NCBI GenBank assembly: GCA_016933515.1 | Contig: JAFGAV010000111.1 | Location: 1-55,478 of the forward strand | Length of the DNA: 55,478 bases | Direction of reading: 5' to 3' | Origin: Candidatus Aminicenantota bacterium | Lineage (GTDB): Bacteria > Acidobacteriota > Aminicenantia > Aminicenantales > JAFGAV01 | Part shown: piece after piece, positions 5,611-51,270 of the stretch | How positions within the stretch are numbered: the stretch's first letter is position 1 | Layout of the letters: every line of letters begins with the position of its first letter | Program-made: the position numbers and the translations under genes | The notes under the pieces: model-generated | What the model was told of the DNA's origin: nothing | What the model saw: only the letters and a program-made list of their open reading frames with translations | Databases searched by the model: none

Positions 5611-5780
5611 AAACCGGCCGTCCTCGATTTCATGGGATTGTTCGGTCCGAGGGCAGCAAAGGACGGTCAACTCGATTCAGGCGAGCCTCAGGCCGCCCTT
5701 CCTTTGATTTTTCTTTCCCGATATCAATGGGTAGGGAGCTTGTCTATCATTAGTCTGGAGCCTCCCCTTCAAGGCTCCTA

Positions 5781-5862
5781 GGCTCTATGACCAATTGTGT
5801 GGTGAATTCCAGTCTGAGGGCCGATGCTCACGCTCAAGGACCGCGCAAAACGTCATGGAGCC
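5781..5862 (+). repeat. Palindromic dispersed repeat, copy 1 (full length)
   Basis: The left arm GGCTCTATGACCAATTGTGT (5781-5800) is an imperfect inverted copy of the right arm, which ends CAAAACGTCATGGAGCC at 5862. The centre GAATTCCAGTCTGAGGGCC...ATGCTCACGCTCAAGGACC also matches copy 3 (49808-49896) nearly base for base. Copy 2 (30136-30181) retains only the right half. The whole element can fold into one long imperfect hairpin. Its right edge is followed by a 6-base stem (GGAGCC/GGCTCC with loop GCC) and then, 11 bases after the edge, by TTGACA of a promoter. Confidence 0.8.
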
Positions 5863-5873
5863 GCCGGCTCCTA

Positions 5874-5902
5874 TTGACAACCGCTTATTGCCTGAACACA
5901 AT
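5874..5902 (+). promoter_or_regulatory. Putative sigma70 promoter next to repeat copy 1
   Basis: A consensus -35 box TTGACA (5874-5879) and CACAAT (5897-5902) are 17 bases apart. The -35 box sits directly behind the palindromic repeat, as at the other two copies. It would drive the pyruvate-kinase-domain gene, with a start near 5909 and a leader of about 25 bases. Confidence 0.6.
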
Positions 5903-5934: not shown

Positions 5935-6552
5935 CTGACTGAAAAGAATCGTGGGAAGAGTAGGAAGAGCGGGAAGCGCATCTTTATTGAAGCGCCCTGC
6001 TTTTATGTCCGCGCCGGCGATCCCGAAGCCACGAGCCTGACGCTCGAGCGCGCCGCCCGCCGGGCGGGGGAGCTCGATATCCGCAACGTGGTCGTGGCCT
6101 CGTCCACGGGCCGAACCGGTCTCCTGGCTGTCCCGTTTTTCAAGGGCCGAAACCTTGTGGTGGTCTCGCATTCGACGGGTTTTTCCAAGCCCGGCGTCCA
6201 GGAGCTCCGGCCCGGTGTCCGCCGGCGGCTCGAGGCGGAGGGCGCCCGCGTCCTGACCTGCCAGCACGCCTTCGGCGGCGTAGGCCGGGCCGTGCGCAAG
6301 AAGTGGGGGACCTACGAGCTTGAGGAAATCCTGGCTATGACGCTCCGCGTCTTCGGCCAGGGCGTCAAGGTCGCCGTCGAGATCGCCCTCATGGCCGCCG
6401 ACGCGGGACTGATCTCCACCCGCGAGCCGTGTCTCTGCCTGGGCGGGACAAGCGGGGGTGCGGATACGGCCCTGCTCCTTCGGCCGGCCAACGCCCAGAC
6501 GTTTTTTGATCTTCGGGTCATGGAAATCCTGGTCAAGCCCCGACTGGATTGA
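5935..6552 (+). CDS. Stand-alone pyruvate kinase alpha/beta (C-terminal) domain protein
   Basis: The frame runs past the first ATG (6088): residues encoded from about 5980 (KRIFIEAPCFYVRAGDPEAT, then LELDIRNVVVAS-type strand) belong to the same family, so an ATG start would cut the domain in half. No ATG, GTG or TTG lies in frame upstream. The best choice is CTG at 5935, preceded by a strong GGAGGAGGG, giving about 205 residues. The protein resembles the C-terminal allosteric domain of pyruvate kinase found alone in many bacteria and archaea (VVASSTGRTG motif, LGGTSGGADTALLLRPAN near the end). There is no catalytic barrel, so it cannot be a pyruvate kinase. The function of the stand-alone family is not established. 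The exact start is uncertain. Confidence 0.7.
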   Translation: MTEKNRGKSRKSGKRIFIEAPCFYVRAGDPEATSLTLERAARRAGELDIRNVVVASSTGRTGLLAVPFFKGRNLVVVSHSTGFSKPGVQELRPGVRRRLEAEGARVLTCQHAFGGVGRAVRKKWGTYELEEILAMTLRVFGQGVKVAVEIALMAADAGLISTREPCLCLGGTSGGADTALLLRPANAQTFFDLRVMEILVKPRLD

Positions 6553-30096: not shown

Positions 30097-30135
30097 CCGG
30101 AGGCAAAGACGATCCGGGCGCCGAAGCCCTCCCCC

Positions 30136-30181
30136 AGGCCCAATCCTCACGCTAAAGGACCACACAAAACGTCATAGAGCC
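30136..30181 (+). repeat. Palindromic dispersed repeat, copy 2 (right half only)
   Basis: AGGCCCAATCCTCACGCTAA and the following bases to GTCATAGAGCC at 30181 match the right half of copy 3 almost exactly. The left arm is absent: the preceding 40 bases after the MFS stop show no match. As at the full copies, TTGACA follows 9 bases after the right edge. Confidence 0.78.
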
Positions 30182-30190
30182 GGCCGTCCT

Positions 30191-30219
30191 TTGACAAGAC
30201 GAGGGAAATCTGATATTAT
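30191..30219 (+). promoter_or_regulatory. Sigma70 promoter P1 upstream of the SpoIID gene
   Basis: A perfect TTGACA (30191-30196), a 17-base spacer and TATTAT (30214-30219, five of six) make this one of the best promoters in the window. It adjoins repeat copy 2 and would start an mRNA with a leader of about 125 bases. Confidence 0.7.
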
Positions 30220-30351: not shown

Positions 30352-32568
30352 ATGAAAATCCATCTGAAACATTATAAATATTTTATCGTCTATTTTTTGG
30401 CCTTGTTTCTTTTTGCCGGACAACCAGTGGAATTCGGGCAGGAAATTCGCTATTTTCAGGGTTTTTCGATAAAAAAACCCATCATCCGAATCGGTCTGTG
30501 TTTCAATTTCCAAAGAATCGTCATCCGTTCTTCTTCGGGCATGAAGGTGTTCCGACAGGATGCGAACCTGTCCCTCCTTGCTCAGGACATCCTGGAAGCT
30601 CAGGTTAAGGGTTTCAGGGAGAAACTGAGCGAAAAATTCCTCATCCAGATCGGGCCCTCGATGGACAACCAGGAAGCCCAGGATCTGGCCCGTCGCCTCA
30701 AAGCCTCCTCCGGGTATTCCGTGACGGTCACTTCGGACGACGACAGCCCTCTCTCAGGGCGATTTCAAGTCCGCCTGGGTCCTTTTATGACCAGGGGAGC
30801 CGCCCTTGATTTTTTCCCTGAGCTCAACCGGCAGGGTCACAAAGATCTCTGGATCGTCCGGGAGGAAGTCACGGAAAGCGAGTCCCGGCCTCTGTGGGTC
30901 CTGATAAACGACCATCTCATCCAACTCTCGAAGGGCACGTCGCTGATGTTCGTTCCCATGCACCCGGAGAGCTACTTGTCCTATGAGGGGACCGATTATC
31001 GCGGTGTTTTGGCCGTTCGGCACGGCCCTCGCGGCGCGGTCCTGATCAACATGGTGAACCTGGATGATTACCTCAAGGGCGTCGTGCCCAGCGAATTGTC
31101 CCCCCATCAGTTCGGAGAGCTCGAAGCCCTCAAGGCGCAGGCGGTTGCCGCCCGAACCTATGCCCTCAAAAATCTGGGACGCTTTGAAAAGCAGGGCTTC
31201 GACCTTGACGACTCTCAGTCCACCCAGGTGTATAAGGGACTCAGCGCCGAGCAGGGCTTGAGCAGCCGGGCTGTGGAGGAGACCGCGGGGCTCGTCGCCC
31301 GCTACAAGGGCGAGCTCATCAACGCCCTCTACACCAGCACCTGCGGAGGCCTGACCGAGAACGCGGAGAACATCTTCGAGGGCAGCCCCGTTCCCTACCT
31401 CCGGTCGGAGGAATGCACGACCGAGCGAACGCCGTCTTGGACTCTCAAGTCCGAGGCCGGACTCCGGCCGGTCGTGTGGCGGGGCAAGGAGATCAGCCGG
31501 GAGGCGGCGGTCCTGGCGGCCCTCGGGCTGTTCCCGGCCTGGGGAGAATCCTCGGCGTCGTTTCGGGAGCCGATGATCCCAAGCGAGGCGGCCGTTCTGA
31601 TCGGGAAAGCCGCGGAGCTCTTGGGAAGGGCCGGGGAAGCCCCGGCGGCCGGAGAGGCCCCTCTGACCGCCGCTGCATTCGCCGGCATGGTCGTCGACGC
31701 TTTTCAATGGCGGGAAAGGGTCAAGACCCTGATGTTGAAGAGGGAAGCCGACGGACTGATGGGTCCCGCGACCGCTCTCTCTCCTGAAAACAGGGAAGCA
31801 GCCGCTTTTCTCGCTCTTTCAGGGTTCTTTCCTCCCGGACTGGATCCGGCCGATGAGACCCATGTCCTGACCAAGGCGGAAACCGCGCTTGTCTTATTCA
31901 AAATCCTGACGTCGGAAAAGCCGTTGATAGAGGGCGGCGTTTTCCGCGGCATGGACAAGGGCCGCCTGCAGATCCTTCAAGAAGGGCAAGAGAAGACGCT
32001 CGGAGTGTCTTCCGGAACGCTCCTCATGAGAAATGTGGAGGGGGAGCCCTCCTTGGCTTCCCGTCTTGAGCTCGAGCCGGGCGACGAAGTGCGTCTCGTG
32101 AAGAAGGGGGAAGCCGCGCTCTGGCTCGAGGCGGGACCGCGGGAGGACAGTCCCGTCCTGGACAGGCGGTCGCCCTACAACCGCTGGCAGGTCCGATTGA
32201 CACATGCCGAGGCCGAAAGAAGAGTCCATCTGCATTATCCCCTCGGCGGCCTGGTGGATGTCGTCCCCAAAAAGAGAGGCGCTTCGCCTCGCGTCACGGA
32301 GCTTCTCTTGGCCGGAAACGACGCCCAGGTCCTTGTCCGCGGGCTCAAGGTCCGCTGGGTGCTCGGTCTGCGGGACACATGGTTCACCGTGGACCGCGAA
32401 TACAACGAGCAGGGCATGATCACCCATTTCGTTTTCACCGGCCGGGGGTGGGGTCACGGAGTGGGCCTGTGCCAAGTGGGGGCGTACCGGCTCGCCCAGC
32501 TCGGGGCGCGGTTCGAGACGATATTGAAAAAATACTACCGGGGCATTACAATAGACAAAATTTACTAG
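30352..32568 (+). CDS. SPOR and SpoIID/LytB domain protein (peptidoglycan amidase-enhancer type)
   Basis: The 738-residue protein has an N-terminal hydrophobic segment (YFIVYFLALFLFAGQP) as signal or anchor, and a SPOR-like repeat pair at about 95-180 (FLIQIGPSMDNQEAQDLARR; FQVRLGPFMTRGAALDF) that should bind denuded glycan strands. The SpoIID domain follows, with INMVNLDDYLKGVVPSELSP, EALKAQAVAARTYAL and STCGGLTENAENIFEGSPVP, resuming at the end with GRGWGHGVGLCQVGAY. A large insertion of about 250 residues splits it. SpoIID proteins are lytic transglycosylases or amidase enhancers acting on peptidoglycan; outside sporulators they work in wall remodelling. The first 40 codons are AT-rich, unlike the rest of the gene. 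speE follows 17 bases downstream. Confidence 0.85.
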   Translation: MKIHLKHYKYFIVYFLALFLFAGQPVEFGQEIRYFQGFSIKKPIIRIGLCFNFQRIVIRSSSGMKVFRQDANLSLLAQDILEAQVKGFREKLSEKFLIQIGPSMDNQEAQDLARRLKASSGYSVTVTSDDDSPLSGRFQVRLGPFMTRGAALDFFPELNRQGHKDLWIVREEVTESESRPLWVLINDHLIQLSKGTSLMFVPMHPESYLSYEGTDYRGVLAVRHGPRGAVLINMVNLDDYLKGVVPSELSPHQFGELEALKAQAVAARTYALKNLGRFEKQGFDLDDSQSTQVYKGLSAEQGLSSRAVEETAGLVARYKGELINALYTSTCGGLTENAENIFEGSPVPYLRSEECTTERTPSWTLKSEAGLRPVVWRGKEISREAAVLAALGLFPAWGESSASFREPMIPSEAAVLIGKAAELLGRAGEAPAAGEAPLTAAAFAGMVVDAFQWRERVKTLMLKREADGLMGPATALSPENREAAAFLALSGFFPPGLDPADETHVLTKAETALVLFKILTSEKPLIEGGVFRGMDKGRLQILQEGQEKTLGVSSGTLLMRNVEGEPSLASRLELEPGDEVRLVKKGEAALWLEAGPREDSPVLDRRSPYNRWQVRLTHAEAERRVHLHYPLGGLVDVVPKKRGASPRVTELLLAGNDAQVLVRGLKVRWVLGLRDTWFTVDREYNEQGMITHFVFTGRGWGHGVGLCQVGAYRLAQLGARFETILKKYYRGITIDKIY

Positions 32569-46923: not shown

Positions 46924-49815
46924 GTGTTCGTTCCGCTCCGCATCCATTCGGTGTACAGCCGGGGCCGGGGGGCGGTCACGATCGACGAGGGCGCCTCTTG
47001 GGCGGCGCGCGGCCGGCTTCGGGCCGCCGGCCTGGCCGACATCGAGAACCTCCACGGCTGGGCGAAGTGGAAACGGGCGGCCGCCGACCACGGGTTCAAG
47101 CCCCTGTTCGGCTGCGAGATCGAGTTCGGCGAAGGCCGTCGCTTCGTGCTCCTGGCAAAGAGCGGCGCGGGGTACGGGCGGCTTGTGGAAACGCTCAACC
47201 GCCGAAAGCTCGATACGACCGAAGGGTTGCTCGTCATCTTTCTTCCCCAGGCCGGCGAGAAGAGGAGTCTCGAGGAGATCGGTCTCGGCGAGCTCGCCGC
47301 ATCCGGCGCTGATTTCTACGTCGGCTGCGACTTTTTCAACTTCCGCGCGGCGCGGCGCTTGGCGCGGCGGCACGGCCGGCCCCTTCTGTGGGCCAACCCC
47401 CTGAAGTTCATCATGAGCGCCGATCGCCTGGTGCTCGTGCGGGCCATTGCGGAGAAGATTCCCTTCCCCCCCGAGCGCGACCGGCTGGCCGGAAAGATCG
47501 AGCTTTTCGGCCCGGCCCAGGAGGCGCTGGCCGTCAAGTGGCTCGGCGCCGAGGCCAAGGCCGCCCTGGCCCGCACCTTCGAGGCGGCCGAGAAGTGCGA
47601 ATTTTCTTTCGAGGACGTCGTCCCGCCCCTGCCGGCCGATCTCTTCGCCGTGCCGCTGCGGGAGACGGTCATGAGGCGGCTCCGGGAGCGGCCCGGCCTC
47701 GGCTGGCGCGAGCGCGAGCGGGCCGGCCGCGAGCTTGAGGCCGTCGAGAGGTCGGGCTTCGCTCCCTACTTTCTCGTCGTTTACGACGTCGTCGAGTTCG
47801 CCCGCCGCCGGGGCATCCTCCACAACCTCAAAGGCTCGGGCGCCTCCTCGTACCTGGCCCATCTGTTGGGCATCTCCCACATCAACCCCCTGGAGTTCGA
47901 CCTTTACTTCGAGCGCTTCCTCAACAGCGGCCGCGACGACCCGCCGGACATCGACCTCGATTTCGACTCGCGCCGCCGCGACGAGGTTCTGGCTTACGTC
48001 CTGGAAAAATACGGAGGCGGCGGGAAGCCGGGGAGCGGCGCGGACGGCGCCGCCCCGCGCACCGGAGCGGCCTTCGTCTGCAGCCTGAAGAACTACCGTG
48101 CCCGCTCGGCCCTTTACGAAACGGCCCGGGCCTTCGGCCTTCCGCCCGAGGAGGCTCGCGGCCTGAGCAAGCGGATTCCCTATTTCGCCGAGCCCGAGAC
48201 GCTCCGGCGCGGCCGCCCGGCGCCGGGCGGCGAGGAAATCTGGCGGCTGGCCGCGGACCTGGGCGGCGTCTACTTCGAGACATCGCTCCACGTGGGGGGA
48301 GTCATCCTCACGCCCGCGCCCGTCGACCGCTACCTGCCGCTCGAAAAATCGGCCAAAGGCCTGGTCATGTCCCATTACGACCGGGACGCGGTCGAGGACC
48401 TGAAACTCATCAAGCTCGACCTCCTCTCGGTAAGAGGGCTGGCCGCCGTATCCCAGGCCAAAACAAGCCTCGGCCTGCGCGGCATCCCGGCGCACGACCC
48501 CAAGGCCGCCGCGCTGCTGCGAAGCGCCCGGACCGTCGGCTGCTTCCAGGTCGAGAGCCCGGCCATGATGAACCTTCTGCGGCGCATGAAGCCGGGGGAC
48601 GTCCGGGATCTCGTCCAGGCTCTGGCCCTCATCCGGCCCGGCCCGACCGAGAGCGGAATGAAGGAGGCGCTGTTGCGGAGCCGCGAAGGGCGTGCGGTCC
48701 GGCGCGACCCGTTCCTGGAACGCCTCCTGCCCGAGACCGACGGCCTCCTCCTTTACGAGGAACAGGTCATGCAGCTCGCCGAGAGGGCGGCCGGGATGCC
48801 GCCCGGAGAGGGCGACCTCCTGCGCCGCGGGCTGAAGAGGCGGGGCGGGCCGGACCCGGCGCTCAAGGAGCGTTTTTTCGGCGAGGCCCGCGGCCGGGGA
48901 TACGCCGCCGAGGAGGTTGAAAAGCTGTGGAGCGTGATGGAGAAATTCTCCTCCTATTCCTTCAACAAGGCCCACAGCGCCTCCTACGCCGCCATGGCCT
49001 ACCAGGCCGTCTACCTCAAGGCCCACCACCCCGCGGCCTACATGGTCGCCGTGCTCAACGCCGGGGGCGGCTACTACGAGCCGGCCGCGTATGTCGAGGA
49101 GGCCAAGCGTCTGGGCATCCCCTTCTTCGGTCCGGACGCGAACCGCAGCCGTTGTGAGTTCGAGGTCGAGGGGGACGGCATCCGTGTCGGGTTTCTGGCC
49201 ATCAAGGGCCTGGCGCTCAGGACGGCGGAGAGGATCGTCGACGAGAGGCGCAACGGCGACTTTCAATCGCTCGAGGACTTTTTGGGGCGGATCAAGCCCG
49301 GCCGGGCCGAGCTCCTGTCGCTCATCCGGGCGGGCGTCTTCGACTCGCTCGAGCCCAAGCGGTCGCACCAAGTGCTGCGCTTCTTTCACGGCCTCGGCGA
49401 AGTGGGCGACGTCTCGGACCTCGAGGCCAGGGAGAAGCAGCGCCTGCTCTATGAAAGCCTGGGGTTCCTTCCCCGGGGCGAGCCGCTCGACCTCTACGAC
49501 GGCCGGAGGCCGCCGCTCCGCATCGGCGACCTCGGCCGCTACGCCGGCCGCGAGGTCGAGCTCATGGTGCGCGTCGTCGACGCCCGGCAGAAGGCGACGG
49601 TCGGCGGAGCGCGGAGGTATTTTTACCTGTTCGAGGACGAGACCGGGCTCCTGGAAGGAGTGGGGATCTCGGCCTGCCCCATCGGCGGCTCCCCGCCCGC
49701 CTGCCGGGTGCGCGGAGAGGTGCGCGTCTCGAACGGCGGCCCGCCGAAGATGGTCGCCTGCCGTTTCGCGGGCGGAAGGCGTTTTCGCGCGGACGCGGGG
49801 GCGGAGATTCTATGA
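46924..49815 (+). CDS. dnaE2: Error-prone DNA polymerase III alpha subunit, DnaE2-like
   Basis: The 963-residue C-family polymerase is shorter than replicative DnaE. The palm aspartates are present: DDPPDIDLDFDSRRRDEVL near residue 340 and LKLIKLDLLSVRGL near 498. VGCFQVESPAMMNLLRRMKP, LIRPGPTESGMKEALL and FSSYSFNKAHSASYAAMAYQ are further conserved blocks. The N-terminal PHP domain is degenerate: HSVYS remains, but the first metal ligand is Arg (RIHS) and the TDH motif is ADI. Proofreading or pyrophosphatase activity there is therefore unlikely. An OB domain is at the end. It probably performs SOS mutagenesis with the upstream DinB. Its stop codon lies inside the left arm of repeat copy 3. 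Confidence 0.88.
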   Translation: MFVPLRIHSVYSRGRGAVTIDEGASWAARGRLRAAGLADIENLHGWAKWKRAAADHGFKPLFGCEIEFGEGRRFVLLAKSGAGYGRLVETLNRRKLDTTEGLLVIFLPQAGEKRSLEEIGLGELAASGADFYVGCDFFNFRAARRLARRHGRPLLWANPLKFIMSADRLVLVRAIAEKIPFPPERDRLAGKIELFGPAQEALAVKWLGAEAKAALARTFEAAEKCEFSFEDVVPPLPADLFAVPLRETVMRRLRERPGLGWRERERAGRELEAVERSGFAPYFLVVYDVVEFARRRGILHNLKGSGASSYLAHLLGISHINPLEFDLYFERFLNSGRDDPPDIDLDFDSRRRDEVLAYVLEKYGGGGKPGSGADGAAPRTGAAFVCSLKNYRARSALYETARAFGLPPEEARGLSKRIPYFAEPETLRRGRPAPGGEEIWRLAADLGGVYFETSLHVGGVILTPAPVDRYLPLEKSAKGLVMSHYDRDAVEDLKLIKLDLLSVRGLAAVSQAKTSLGLRGIPAHDPKAAALLRSARTVGCFQVESPAMMNLLRRMKPGDVRDLVQALALIRPGPTESGMKEALLRSREGRAVRRDPFLERLLPETDGLLLYEEQVMQLAERAAGMPPGEGDLLRRGLKRRGGPDPALKERFFGEARGRGYAAEEVEKLWSVMEKFSSYSFNKAHSASYAAMAYQAVYLKAHHPAAYMVAVLNAGGGYYEPAAYVEEAKRLGIPFFGPDANRSRCEFEVEGDGIRVGFLAIKGLALRTAERIVDERRNGDFQSLEDFLGRIKPGRAELLSLIRAGVFDSLEPKRSHQVLRFFHGLGEVGDVSDLEAREKQRLLYESLGFLPRGEPLDLYDGRRPPLRIGDLGRYAGREVELMVRVVDARQKATVGGARRYFYLFEDETGLLEGVGISACPIGGSPPACRVRGEVRVSNGGPPKMVACRFAGGRRFRADAGAEIL

Positions 49816-49896
49816 CGCATTGTGTGGTGAATTCCAGCCTGAGGGCCAAGGCCCAATGCTCACGCTAAAGGACCAAACAAAACGTCATGTGGAGCC
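49808..49896 (+). repeat. Palindromic dispersed repeat, copy 3 (full length)
   Basis: The left arm (CTATGACGCATTGTGTGG from 49810) and the right arm (CCAAACAAAACGTCATGTGG, then AGCC to 49896) are imperfect inverted copies. The centre contains a GGGCC/GGCCC stem (49843-49854). The TGA stop of dnaE2 (49813-49815) is part of the left arm. TTGACG of a promoter follows 9 bases after the right edge, as at the other two copies. Confidence 0.8.
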
Positions 49897-49905
49897 AGGC
49901 GCGGA

Positions 49906-49935
49906 TTGACGAGCCGGCGTCCGCGCCGTTATGAT
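49906..49935 (+). promoter_or_regulatory. Sigma70 promoter next to repeat copy 3
   Basis: TTGACG (49906-49911) and TATGAT (49930-49935) are 18 bases apart, each one base from consensus. The start would be near 49942, twenty bases ahead of the aminotransferase ATG. Confidence 0.65.
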
Positions 49936-49962
49936 GGCCCCATCTTGAACAAGGAGGGCTCC

Positions 49963-51270
49963 ATGGATTCTCTTTCGGTCTTCCCGCGACGGCGCTTGAT
50001 GAAGCTTCTTCTGGCCGGCCCGATATTGACCGCCGCGGCCTGGGACGCGCTCAAAGCCGAGGCCAACCAAGCCGTCACGGCTCTCAGCCGAAAATATCTT
50101 GAGGACGAATCCCCTGACGGCGCCTACTGGGAAGAGCTGCACAATTTTTACGCTTTTGAAAACCGCTTCATCATGATGAACAACGGCACGTGCGGGCCCA
50201 TGCCCAAGCCGGTGTTTCACGCCCTGATGAAGGCCTTCCAGACCCAGGTGTCGAATCCCTATGACGTCTACGCCTACCAGCCTACGTTCATCGAGGCCGT
50301 CCGGCGCAAGCTGGCCGCGTTCATTCACGCCGAGCCGGAAGAGGTGGCGCTGGTCAGCAACACGACCGAGGGCATCAATCTCATCGTCAACGGCCTGGAC
50401 ATGAAAGAGGGTGATGAGGTCCTCGTGACCAGTTTGGAGCACCCGGGCCATATCAACCCCTGGCGGCTGAAGGAAAAAAGGTCGGGCATCAAGGTCCGCC
50501 AGGTCGACATGCCCCTGTTTCCGAATTCGGTCGACGAGATCGTCGGCGCCTTCGCCGCCGCCGTCACGCCCCGGACGCGGATGATCAGCATCAGCCACAC
50601 GGTGTTCATCACCGGCCTGATCATGCCCCTCAAGGAATTGAGCGCTCTGGCTCGCGAAAAGGGGCTGTTCCTCCTCGCCGACAGCGCCCACGGGATCGGA
50701 ATGCTCGATCTGAACATGAAGGAGGCCGGCGTGGATTTCTTCATGTCCAGCCCCTACAAGTGGCTGGGCGCGCCGACCGGCATCGGCGTGCTTTACGTCC
50801 GCAGGGAGGTTCTGGAAAAAGTCTGGCCGACGATCGTTTCCTCGGGCTGGGACAGGGATAAAACGGCGGCCAAGCTCGATCCGCAGGGCCAAAGGGCGGA
50901 CGCCCTTCTTTTCGCCTTGGACGAGGCCATGAACTTCAACAACCACATCGGCCGAAGGCGGATCGAGAAACGGATCAAGGTTTTGTCGGGACACTTGAAG
51001 AAAGAACTTCAAAAAATCCGGGGCGTCAAGCTCCACACTCCCCTTGATGTTTACCTGAGCGCCGGGCTGACCGCTTTTTCGGTCGAGGGCGTGGATGCGG
51101 CGCGCATCGTCGACTACCTGCGCGAAAAATACAACCTCGTCGTCCGCACTACGGGGAATCGCGAGGCGGGAACCTACGGCGTCCGGGTTTCGACGCCCAT
51201 CTACACCTCCTTTAGGGAGGCCGACCTGGTCGTCGAGGGGGTTCGTCACCTCGCCTCGCGCAAGGTGTGA
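49963..51270 (+). CDS. Class V aminotransferase-fold protein (CefD/isopenicillin N epimerase-like) with Tat-type signal
   Basis: The 435-residue PLP enzyme has MNNGTCGPMPKPVFHAL, the VSNTTEGINLIVNGL cofactor-phosphate region, LLADSAHGIGMLDL with the pyridine-binding aspartate, and the Schiff-base lysine in SSPYKWLGAPTGIG. The closest described relatives are isopenicillin N epimerase-like and cysteine desulfurase-like enzymes. The N-terminus FPRRRLMKLLLAGPILTAAA resembles a twin-arginine signal, so it is probably exported folded with its cofactor. ATG 49963 follows AAGGAGG. It is a single-gene unit with a strong promoter. The substrate is not predictable. Confidence 0.85.
   Translation: MDSLSVFPRRRLMKLLLAGPILTAAAWDALKAEANQAVTALSRKYLEDESPDGAYWEELHNFYAFENRFIMMNNGTCGPMPKPVFHALMKAFQTQVSNPYDVYAYQPTFIEAVRRKLAAFIHAEPEEVALVSNTTEGINLIVNGLDMKEGDEVLVTSLEHPGHINPWRLKEKRSGIKVRQVDMPLFPNSVDEIVGAFAAAVTPRTRMISISHTVFITGLIMPLKELSALAREKGLFLLADSAHGIGMLDLNMKEAGVDFFMSSPYKWLGAPTGIGVLYVRREVLEKVWPTIVSSGWDRDKTAAKLDPQGQRADALLFALDEAMNFNNHIGRRRIEKRIKVLSGHLKKELQKIRGVKLHTPLDVYLSAGLTAFSVEGVDAARIVDYLREKYNLVVRTTGNREAGTYGVRVSTPIYTSFREADLVVEGVRHLASRKV

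Follow-up and report, generated by a model that had tools for sequence, protein, structure and literature searches.

A probable promoter-targeting miniature transposon of an ISL3-related lineage in Candidatus Aminicenantes

A short palindromic repeat dispersed in the genome of a Candidatus Aminicenantes bacterium is, with high probability, a promoter-targeting non-autonomous DNA transposon (MITE) of an ISL3-related lineage, inserted one 9-bp target-site duplication (TSD) away from the -35 box of sigma70-type promoters. Three copies lie in the window, the whole 55,478-nucleotide stretch of DNA analysed here (Table 1), which belongs to a 2.37 Mb MAG of 123 contigs (G000, the source genome). An earlier note on the window described two full palindromes and a right-half copy at 30136-30181, each with TTGACA or TTGACG 9-11 bp past its right edge. 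Both full copies are present. The partial copy does possess the right end but belongs to a longer form, homology to other long forms running leftward to about 30114. The gaps to TTGAC measure 11, 9 and 9 bp for copies 1, 2 and 3, within the range given in the note. Copy 1 is among the few off-register cases of the family, its 11-bp gap being the sum of two additional bases and a 9-bp TSD, the latter still directly next to TTGACA. The functions attributed to the three downstream genes (a pyruvate-kinase-domain protein, a SpoIID protein and a class V aminotransferase) are confirmed by Pfam. No Rfam family matched in the window.

Table 1. Copies of the element in the window, their flanking duplications, predicted promoters and downstream genes.
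Feature	Position	Strand	Basis or remark
MITE copy 1, 82 bp	5781..5862	+	91% identity to 82-bp consensus, both ends intact
Left TSD, copy 1 (aggctccta)	5772..5780		sequence
Right TSD, copy 1 (cggctccta), abuts -35	5865..5873		sequence
Predicted host promoter at copy 1: TTGACA, 17-bp spacer, CACAAT	5874..5902	+	sequence
Reading frame downstream of copy 1, pyruvate kinase C-terminal-like domain (PK_C), start codon unsure	5956..6552	+	PF02887, 31.1 bits
Copy 3, right end of truncated long form	30114..30181	+	matches right ends of long forms L031, L046, L047
Presumed 9-bp TSD, copy 3 (ggccgtcct)	30182..30190		position; left end lost
Predicted host promoter at copy 3: TTGACA, 17-bp spacer, TATTAT	30191..30219	+	sequence
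SpoIID-domain gene behind copy 3	30352..32568	+	PF08486
MITE copy 2, 91 bp; small length differences inside and at the ends make it longer than the 82-bp core	49806..49896	+	genome search, sequence
Left TSD, copy 2 (gggggcgga)	49797..49805		7/9 identical to right TSD
Right TSD, copy 2 (aggcgcgga), abuts -35	49897..49905		sequence
Predicted host promoter at copy 2: TTGACG, 18-bp spacer, TATGAT	49906..49935	+	sequence
Class V aminotransferase gene behind copy 2	49945..51270	+	PF00266

A search of the whole source genome with copy 2 as query identified about 40 copies, and searches with the ends and with a half-element query added further forms. The genome holds at least 50 copies of one family; the 50 elements analysed comprise 41 with both ends and 9 with a single end. 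The commonest form is an 82-bp core. Other sizes are 42, 55, 62, 83-91, 238, 279 and 324 bp, and truncated long forms occur too. The 28 copies of exactly 82 bp share a mean identity of 87% pairwise and 92% to their consensus, values that mark the family as an ageing one. The ends read GGCTC[T/C]ATGACG; the consensus starts with GGCTCTATGACGCATTGTGTGGT and ends with the complement of GGCTCCATGACGTTTTGTGTGGT, the terminal inverted repeats matching over approximately 23 bp. The elements are thus short, bounded by inverted repeats and devoid of a transposase gene, and their many dispersed copies carry target-site duplications, as is typical of MITEs. When left and right flanks were compared at TSD lengths from 5 to 14, mean identity reached 0.81 at length 9 and did not exceed 0.38 at any other. 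Of the 41 duplications, 14 are perfect and 26 differ at no more than one position. These duplications identify the repeat as a transposed element. Three long forms, L038 (G000:C10:16459-16782), L036 and L055, contain an inner inverted repeat, CCGGAGACAGCT...AGCTGTCTCCGG, which looks like a second, nested miniature element. Another long copy, of 279 bp (L043, G000:C83:12917-13195), has a perfect 9-bp duplication before TTGACT-N17-TATAAT.

The distance to the -35 box is nearly invariant. TTGAC begins 10 bp outside an end, just after the 9-bp TSD, in 31 of the 50 elements, where 0.095 would be expected (binomial p 1.5e-71); in 45 that position has TTG. Counting ends rather than elements, TTGAC occurs 32 times at the 9-bp offset among 91 ends, compared with about 0.15 times per other offset. 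A TATAAT-like -10 box comes next, the spacer measuring 17 bp in 27 of 43 cases and 15-19 bp in the others; since the spacer varies, the fixed distance is to the -35 box and not to the -10 box. The promoter lies at the left end in 19 and at the right end in 20 of the 41 full copies, with TTG at both ends in two; element orientation relative to the promoter is therefore random. The fixed spacing, for which the earlier note had proposed a genome-wide check, holds in at least 50 copies of the source genome, neither location away from promoters nor variable spacing being the rule.

The median distance from the element end to the start of the best open reading frame is 81 bp. Downstream products recognised by Pfam include ribosomal protein S16 (rpsP), SecA, Clp ATPase (clpB), H+-pyrophosphatase, a phosphoribosyltransferase, HisG, phosphoglycerate mutase, FeoB, an AMP-binding enzyme, an AAA ATPase, an amino acid permease, an MFS transporter and others; rpsP and secA are essential genes. 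That these genes are unrelated argues against a regulon. A conserved operator or UP-like site, one of the options raised in the earlier note, would agree with a position fixed at about -45 upstream of many promoters, but the 9-bp duplication of flanking DNA contradicts it, the random orientation, the size variants, the unrelated genes and a same-genus genome with almost no copies all speak against it too, and we find it scarcely credible. The RNA of the MITE folds as a hairpin (z -4.7, -2.1 and -1.6), as its inverted repeats lead one to expect. Transcription termination, likewise considered previously, is not supported as the main function of this hairpin: right ends run into varied TSD sequence instead of a stretch of T, and a terminator would have no reason to keep a constant distance from the promoter that follows. 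The suggestion that the element supplies -35 boxes was rejected because the box lies outside both element and TSD. Of the options in the note, it is the MITE-like element targeting -35 boxes that fits the inverted-repeat ends, the 9-bp TSDs, the many copies, the random orientation and the fixed 9-bp offset.

A -10 box with two mismatches or fewer accompanies 26 of 32 element-adjacent TTGACs, compared with 10 of the 106 TTGACs in the window. Restricting the comparison to intergenic TTGACs, the figures are 13 of 15 and 12 of 40, the genic/intergenic split being a crude ORF heuristic that put 17 element-adjacent sites in "genes". Moreover, sites with a weak -35 box (TTGCCG, TTGCTT, TTGTCA, TTGCCA) have near-perfect -10 boxes. 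The -10 enrichment and the weak sites favour the view that promoters are recognised as such. Selection against genic insertions gives rise to part of this signal as well, and promoter recognition is accordingly favoured only tentatively. The transposase might read the TTGAC motif directly, promoters being hit through the motif combined with selective loss of insertions in genes. Information content at hit sites is highest at TTGAC (1.9, 1.8, 1.4, 1.0 and 0.8 bits) and low elsewhere except at the -10. Conservation of this strength at the -35 may reflect reading of the sequence itself instead of recognition of the promoter, and other genomes likewise show an almost constant distance to TTGAC. 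Against this stand the excess of -10 boxes at hit TTGACs, the weak -35 sites, and the fact that the DNA examined contains some 300 genic TTGACs with no element clearly inside a gene. We regard direct reading as a real possibility while leaning somewhat against it. Selection might also act alone, on random insertions of which only those just upstream of promoters survive. Insertions in genes or core promoters would be harmful, and the essential rpsP and secA are among the genes downstream. However, survival cannot yield a single-base offset, TTGAC being almost absent from other offsets, and insertions farther upstream than about -45, or between convergent genes, ought to survive as well; the offset distribution contradicts this explanation, which is highly improbable.

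Elements with the same ends occur in other Aminicenantales. The sister species G001 (same genus; MAG VGJG01, Candidatus Aminicenantes), which provided the single exact match of the genome_contigs search, has few copies. One lies at the same secA site as a 55-bp deleted copy in the source genome; being common to both genomes, the secA insertion is older than the divergence of the two species. When the class and the order were searched with the end patterns, the ends turned up in Aminicenantales but were absent from the 48 genomes of the class sampled outside this order; a search of viral_contigs with two end patterns gave no match. Among 45 elements from other MAGs (families f1, f2, f4, f6 and f7), TTGAC is exactly at +10 in 23, and in another 7 that position has TTG or TTGAC is shifted by one base. 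Near 55 ends there are 31 TTGACs, 23 of them at the single +10 offset. Element interiors differ, so what recurs is the ends and the offset, not one repeat. In family f4, five related elements (L080, L082, L085, L091 and L098, in G019 and G004) contain an inner repeat whose inverted arms are of the CCCCCTTTGGAAAAGGGGG type and which may be a further nested repeat. At the level of sequence, the MITE structure, the 9-bp TSDs, the -35 anchor, the random orientation and the recurrence across the order are established.

The search for an autonomous relative led only to degraded elements of ISL3 type with similar ends and the same -35 offset. Order-wide ISL3 hits include three such remnants (L169, L180 and L172), in which TTGACA stands exactly 9 bp beyond ends reading GGCTCTTCAGCCAAAAGTGTGGT or similar. 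Another (L184) has TTGCAA at the 9-bp offset, and in a further one (L170) the distance is 10 bp, one base off. The promoter offset is missing from L181 and from two transposase remnants tied to ends GGCTCTATAACAAAGAGTGTGAT and GGCTCTATGACGAATATTGTGGC (L158 and L163). The L169 transposase passes the NCBIfam ISL3 model (NF033550) with 192 bits against a cut-off of 180. L169, L180 and L172 form a clade (support 100/99), whose join to one long-branched outside row is unreliable, and show about 25-33% identity to ordinary ISL3. The MITEs share with ISL3-family insertion sequences the end pattern GGCTCT...GTG(T/G)GGT. This pattern, together with the identical geometry of the transposase-bearing remnants, gives good support to the proposal that an ISL3-type transposase moved the MITE. 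In the order and the phylum, ordinary ISL3 elements leave AT-rich TSDs of 8 bp at sites that are not beside promoters, whereas the MITEs have 9-bp TSDs at promoters; because of the 9-bp TSDs we call the family ISL3-related rather than standard ISL3. A PF01610 (ISL3) search of the source genome had no match, all ISL3 copies seen of the L169/L180/L172 clade are degraded, with no intact autonomous element found, and in PLSDB no ISL3 relative of this clade exceeded 60% identity, the best rows reaching about 32%. In another Acidobacteriota family, a distant ISL3 element (L188, G352:C116) with end GGCTCTTTGTGAATCG has a TTGACA-N17-TATATC that begins 10 bp beyond its right end; the picture at its second copy (L197) is less plain. 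From L188, promoter targeting may be wider within ISL3.

The parent could instead be a p-MULT transposase, from a group already known to target promoters. TSDs of p-MULT elements are 8-9 bp long, and some of these elements, namely TnGBS ICEs and the ISLre2 family (p-MULT 3) and the ISKra4 group (p-MULT 4), are inserted ahead of sigmaA promoters with the -35 box 13-17 bp away, in both orientations when their ends are symmetric (Guerillot et al. 2014, PMC3942029). The MITEs resemble these elements in their fixed-distance insertion upstream of sigmaA-type promoters and in using both orientations, but differ in their ends and in an offset of 9 bp, the TSD abutting the -35 box. We inspected 23 full or near-full Acidobacteriota ISKra4 loci for ends and offset. 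Within the order, full-length ISKra4 was found only in G024, where two insertion sequences with ends GGGCCTGCGTCATA precede TTGAC promoters by 17 bp (L071) and 16 bp (L057); clear-cut examples from other parts of the phylum are also 16-17 bp from TTGAC. The G024 loci are in themselves a clean example of known p-MULT targeting in Aminicenantales; as a parent, ISKra4 was set aside for its different ends and offset. ISH6-type p-MULTs of the order were rejected too, having other ends and no -35 box at 9 bp. A search for ISKra4-type transposases with NF033572 had no match in the source genome, in G001 or in the MITE-rich G004, G015 and G019, these MAGs being incomplete. A p-MULT parent is unlikely on this evidence.

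For the ISL3-related MITE, the following sequence of events can be proposed. A transposase of a divergent ISL3-related lineage, none being found in the source MAG, would cut the target in a staggered manner, 9 bp apart, the inner cut falling exactly where the -35 hexamer of a sigma70-type promoter begins on its upstream side. Each insertion would leave [element]-[9-bp TSD]-[TTGAC-N17-TATAAT], with the element in either orientation. The transposase could read TTGAC itself, or make contact with sigma region 4 or RNA polymerase bound at the promoter. Insertion at about -36 to -44 would constitute a safe harbour, the core promoter presumably still working. The near single-base precision makes the mechanism testable, and each copy flags a predicted sigma70-type promoter, offering a natural promoter map for an uncultured phylum. 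To our knowledge, a promoter-seeking habit is documented for few bacterial transposons, and not for the Aminicenantes lineage; the instances we know of belong to two related groups of Mutator-like transposases. A second promoter-seeking lineage, working in a different register, would suggest that a safe-harbour strategy evolved convergently.

Other known systems share some of these traits. A 187-bp Microcystis MITE with GGCTCTTCG ends is likewise attributed to an ISL3 transposase, but is described with 8-nt direct repeats and, in the part of that account available to us, without mention of promoter targeting (PMC11448079). Correia elements and other bacterial MITEs are also short, non-autonomous inverted-repeat elements often found upstream of genes; Correia elements carry their own promoters (PMC10969869), whereas the present MITE adjoins an existing host promoter at a fixed distance without supplying one. 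No report of promoter targeting by ISL3-type elements was found in the literature searched, most subscription journals lying outside it. Tentatively, and as something possible rather than probable, an ISL3-type lineage outside the promoter-seeking Mutator-like transposases may have independently evolved docking on sigma70/RNA polymerase, or on its -35 footprint, joining DNA exactly at the upstream -35 edge. Such a transposase would be a bacterial counterpart of Ty3, which targets Pol III initiation complexes.
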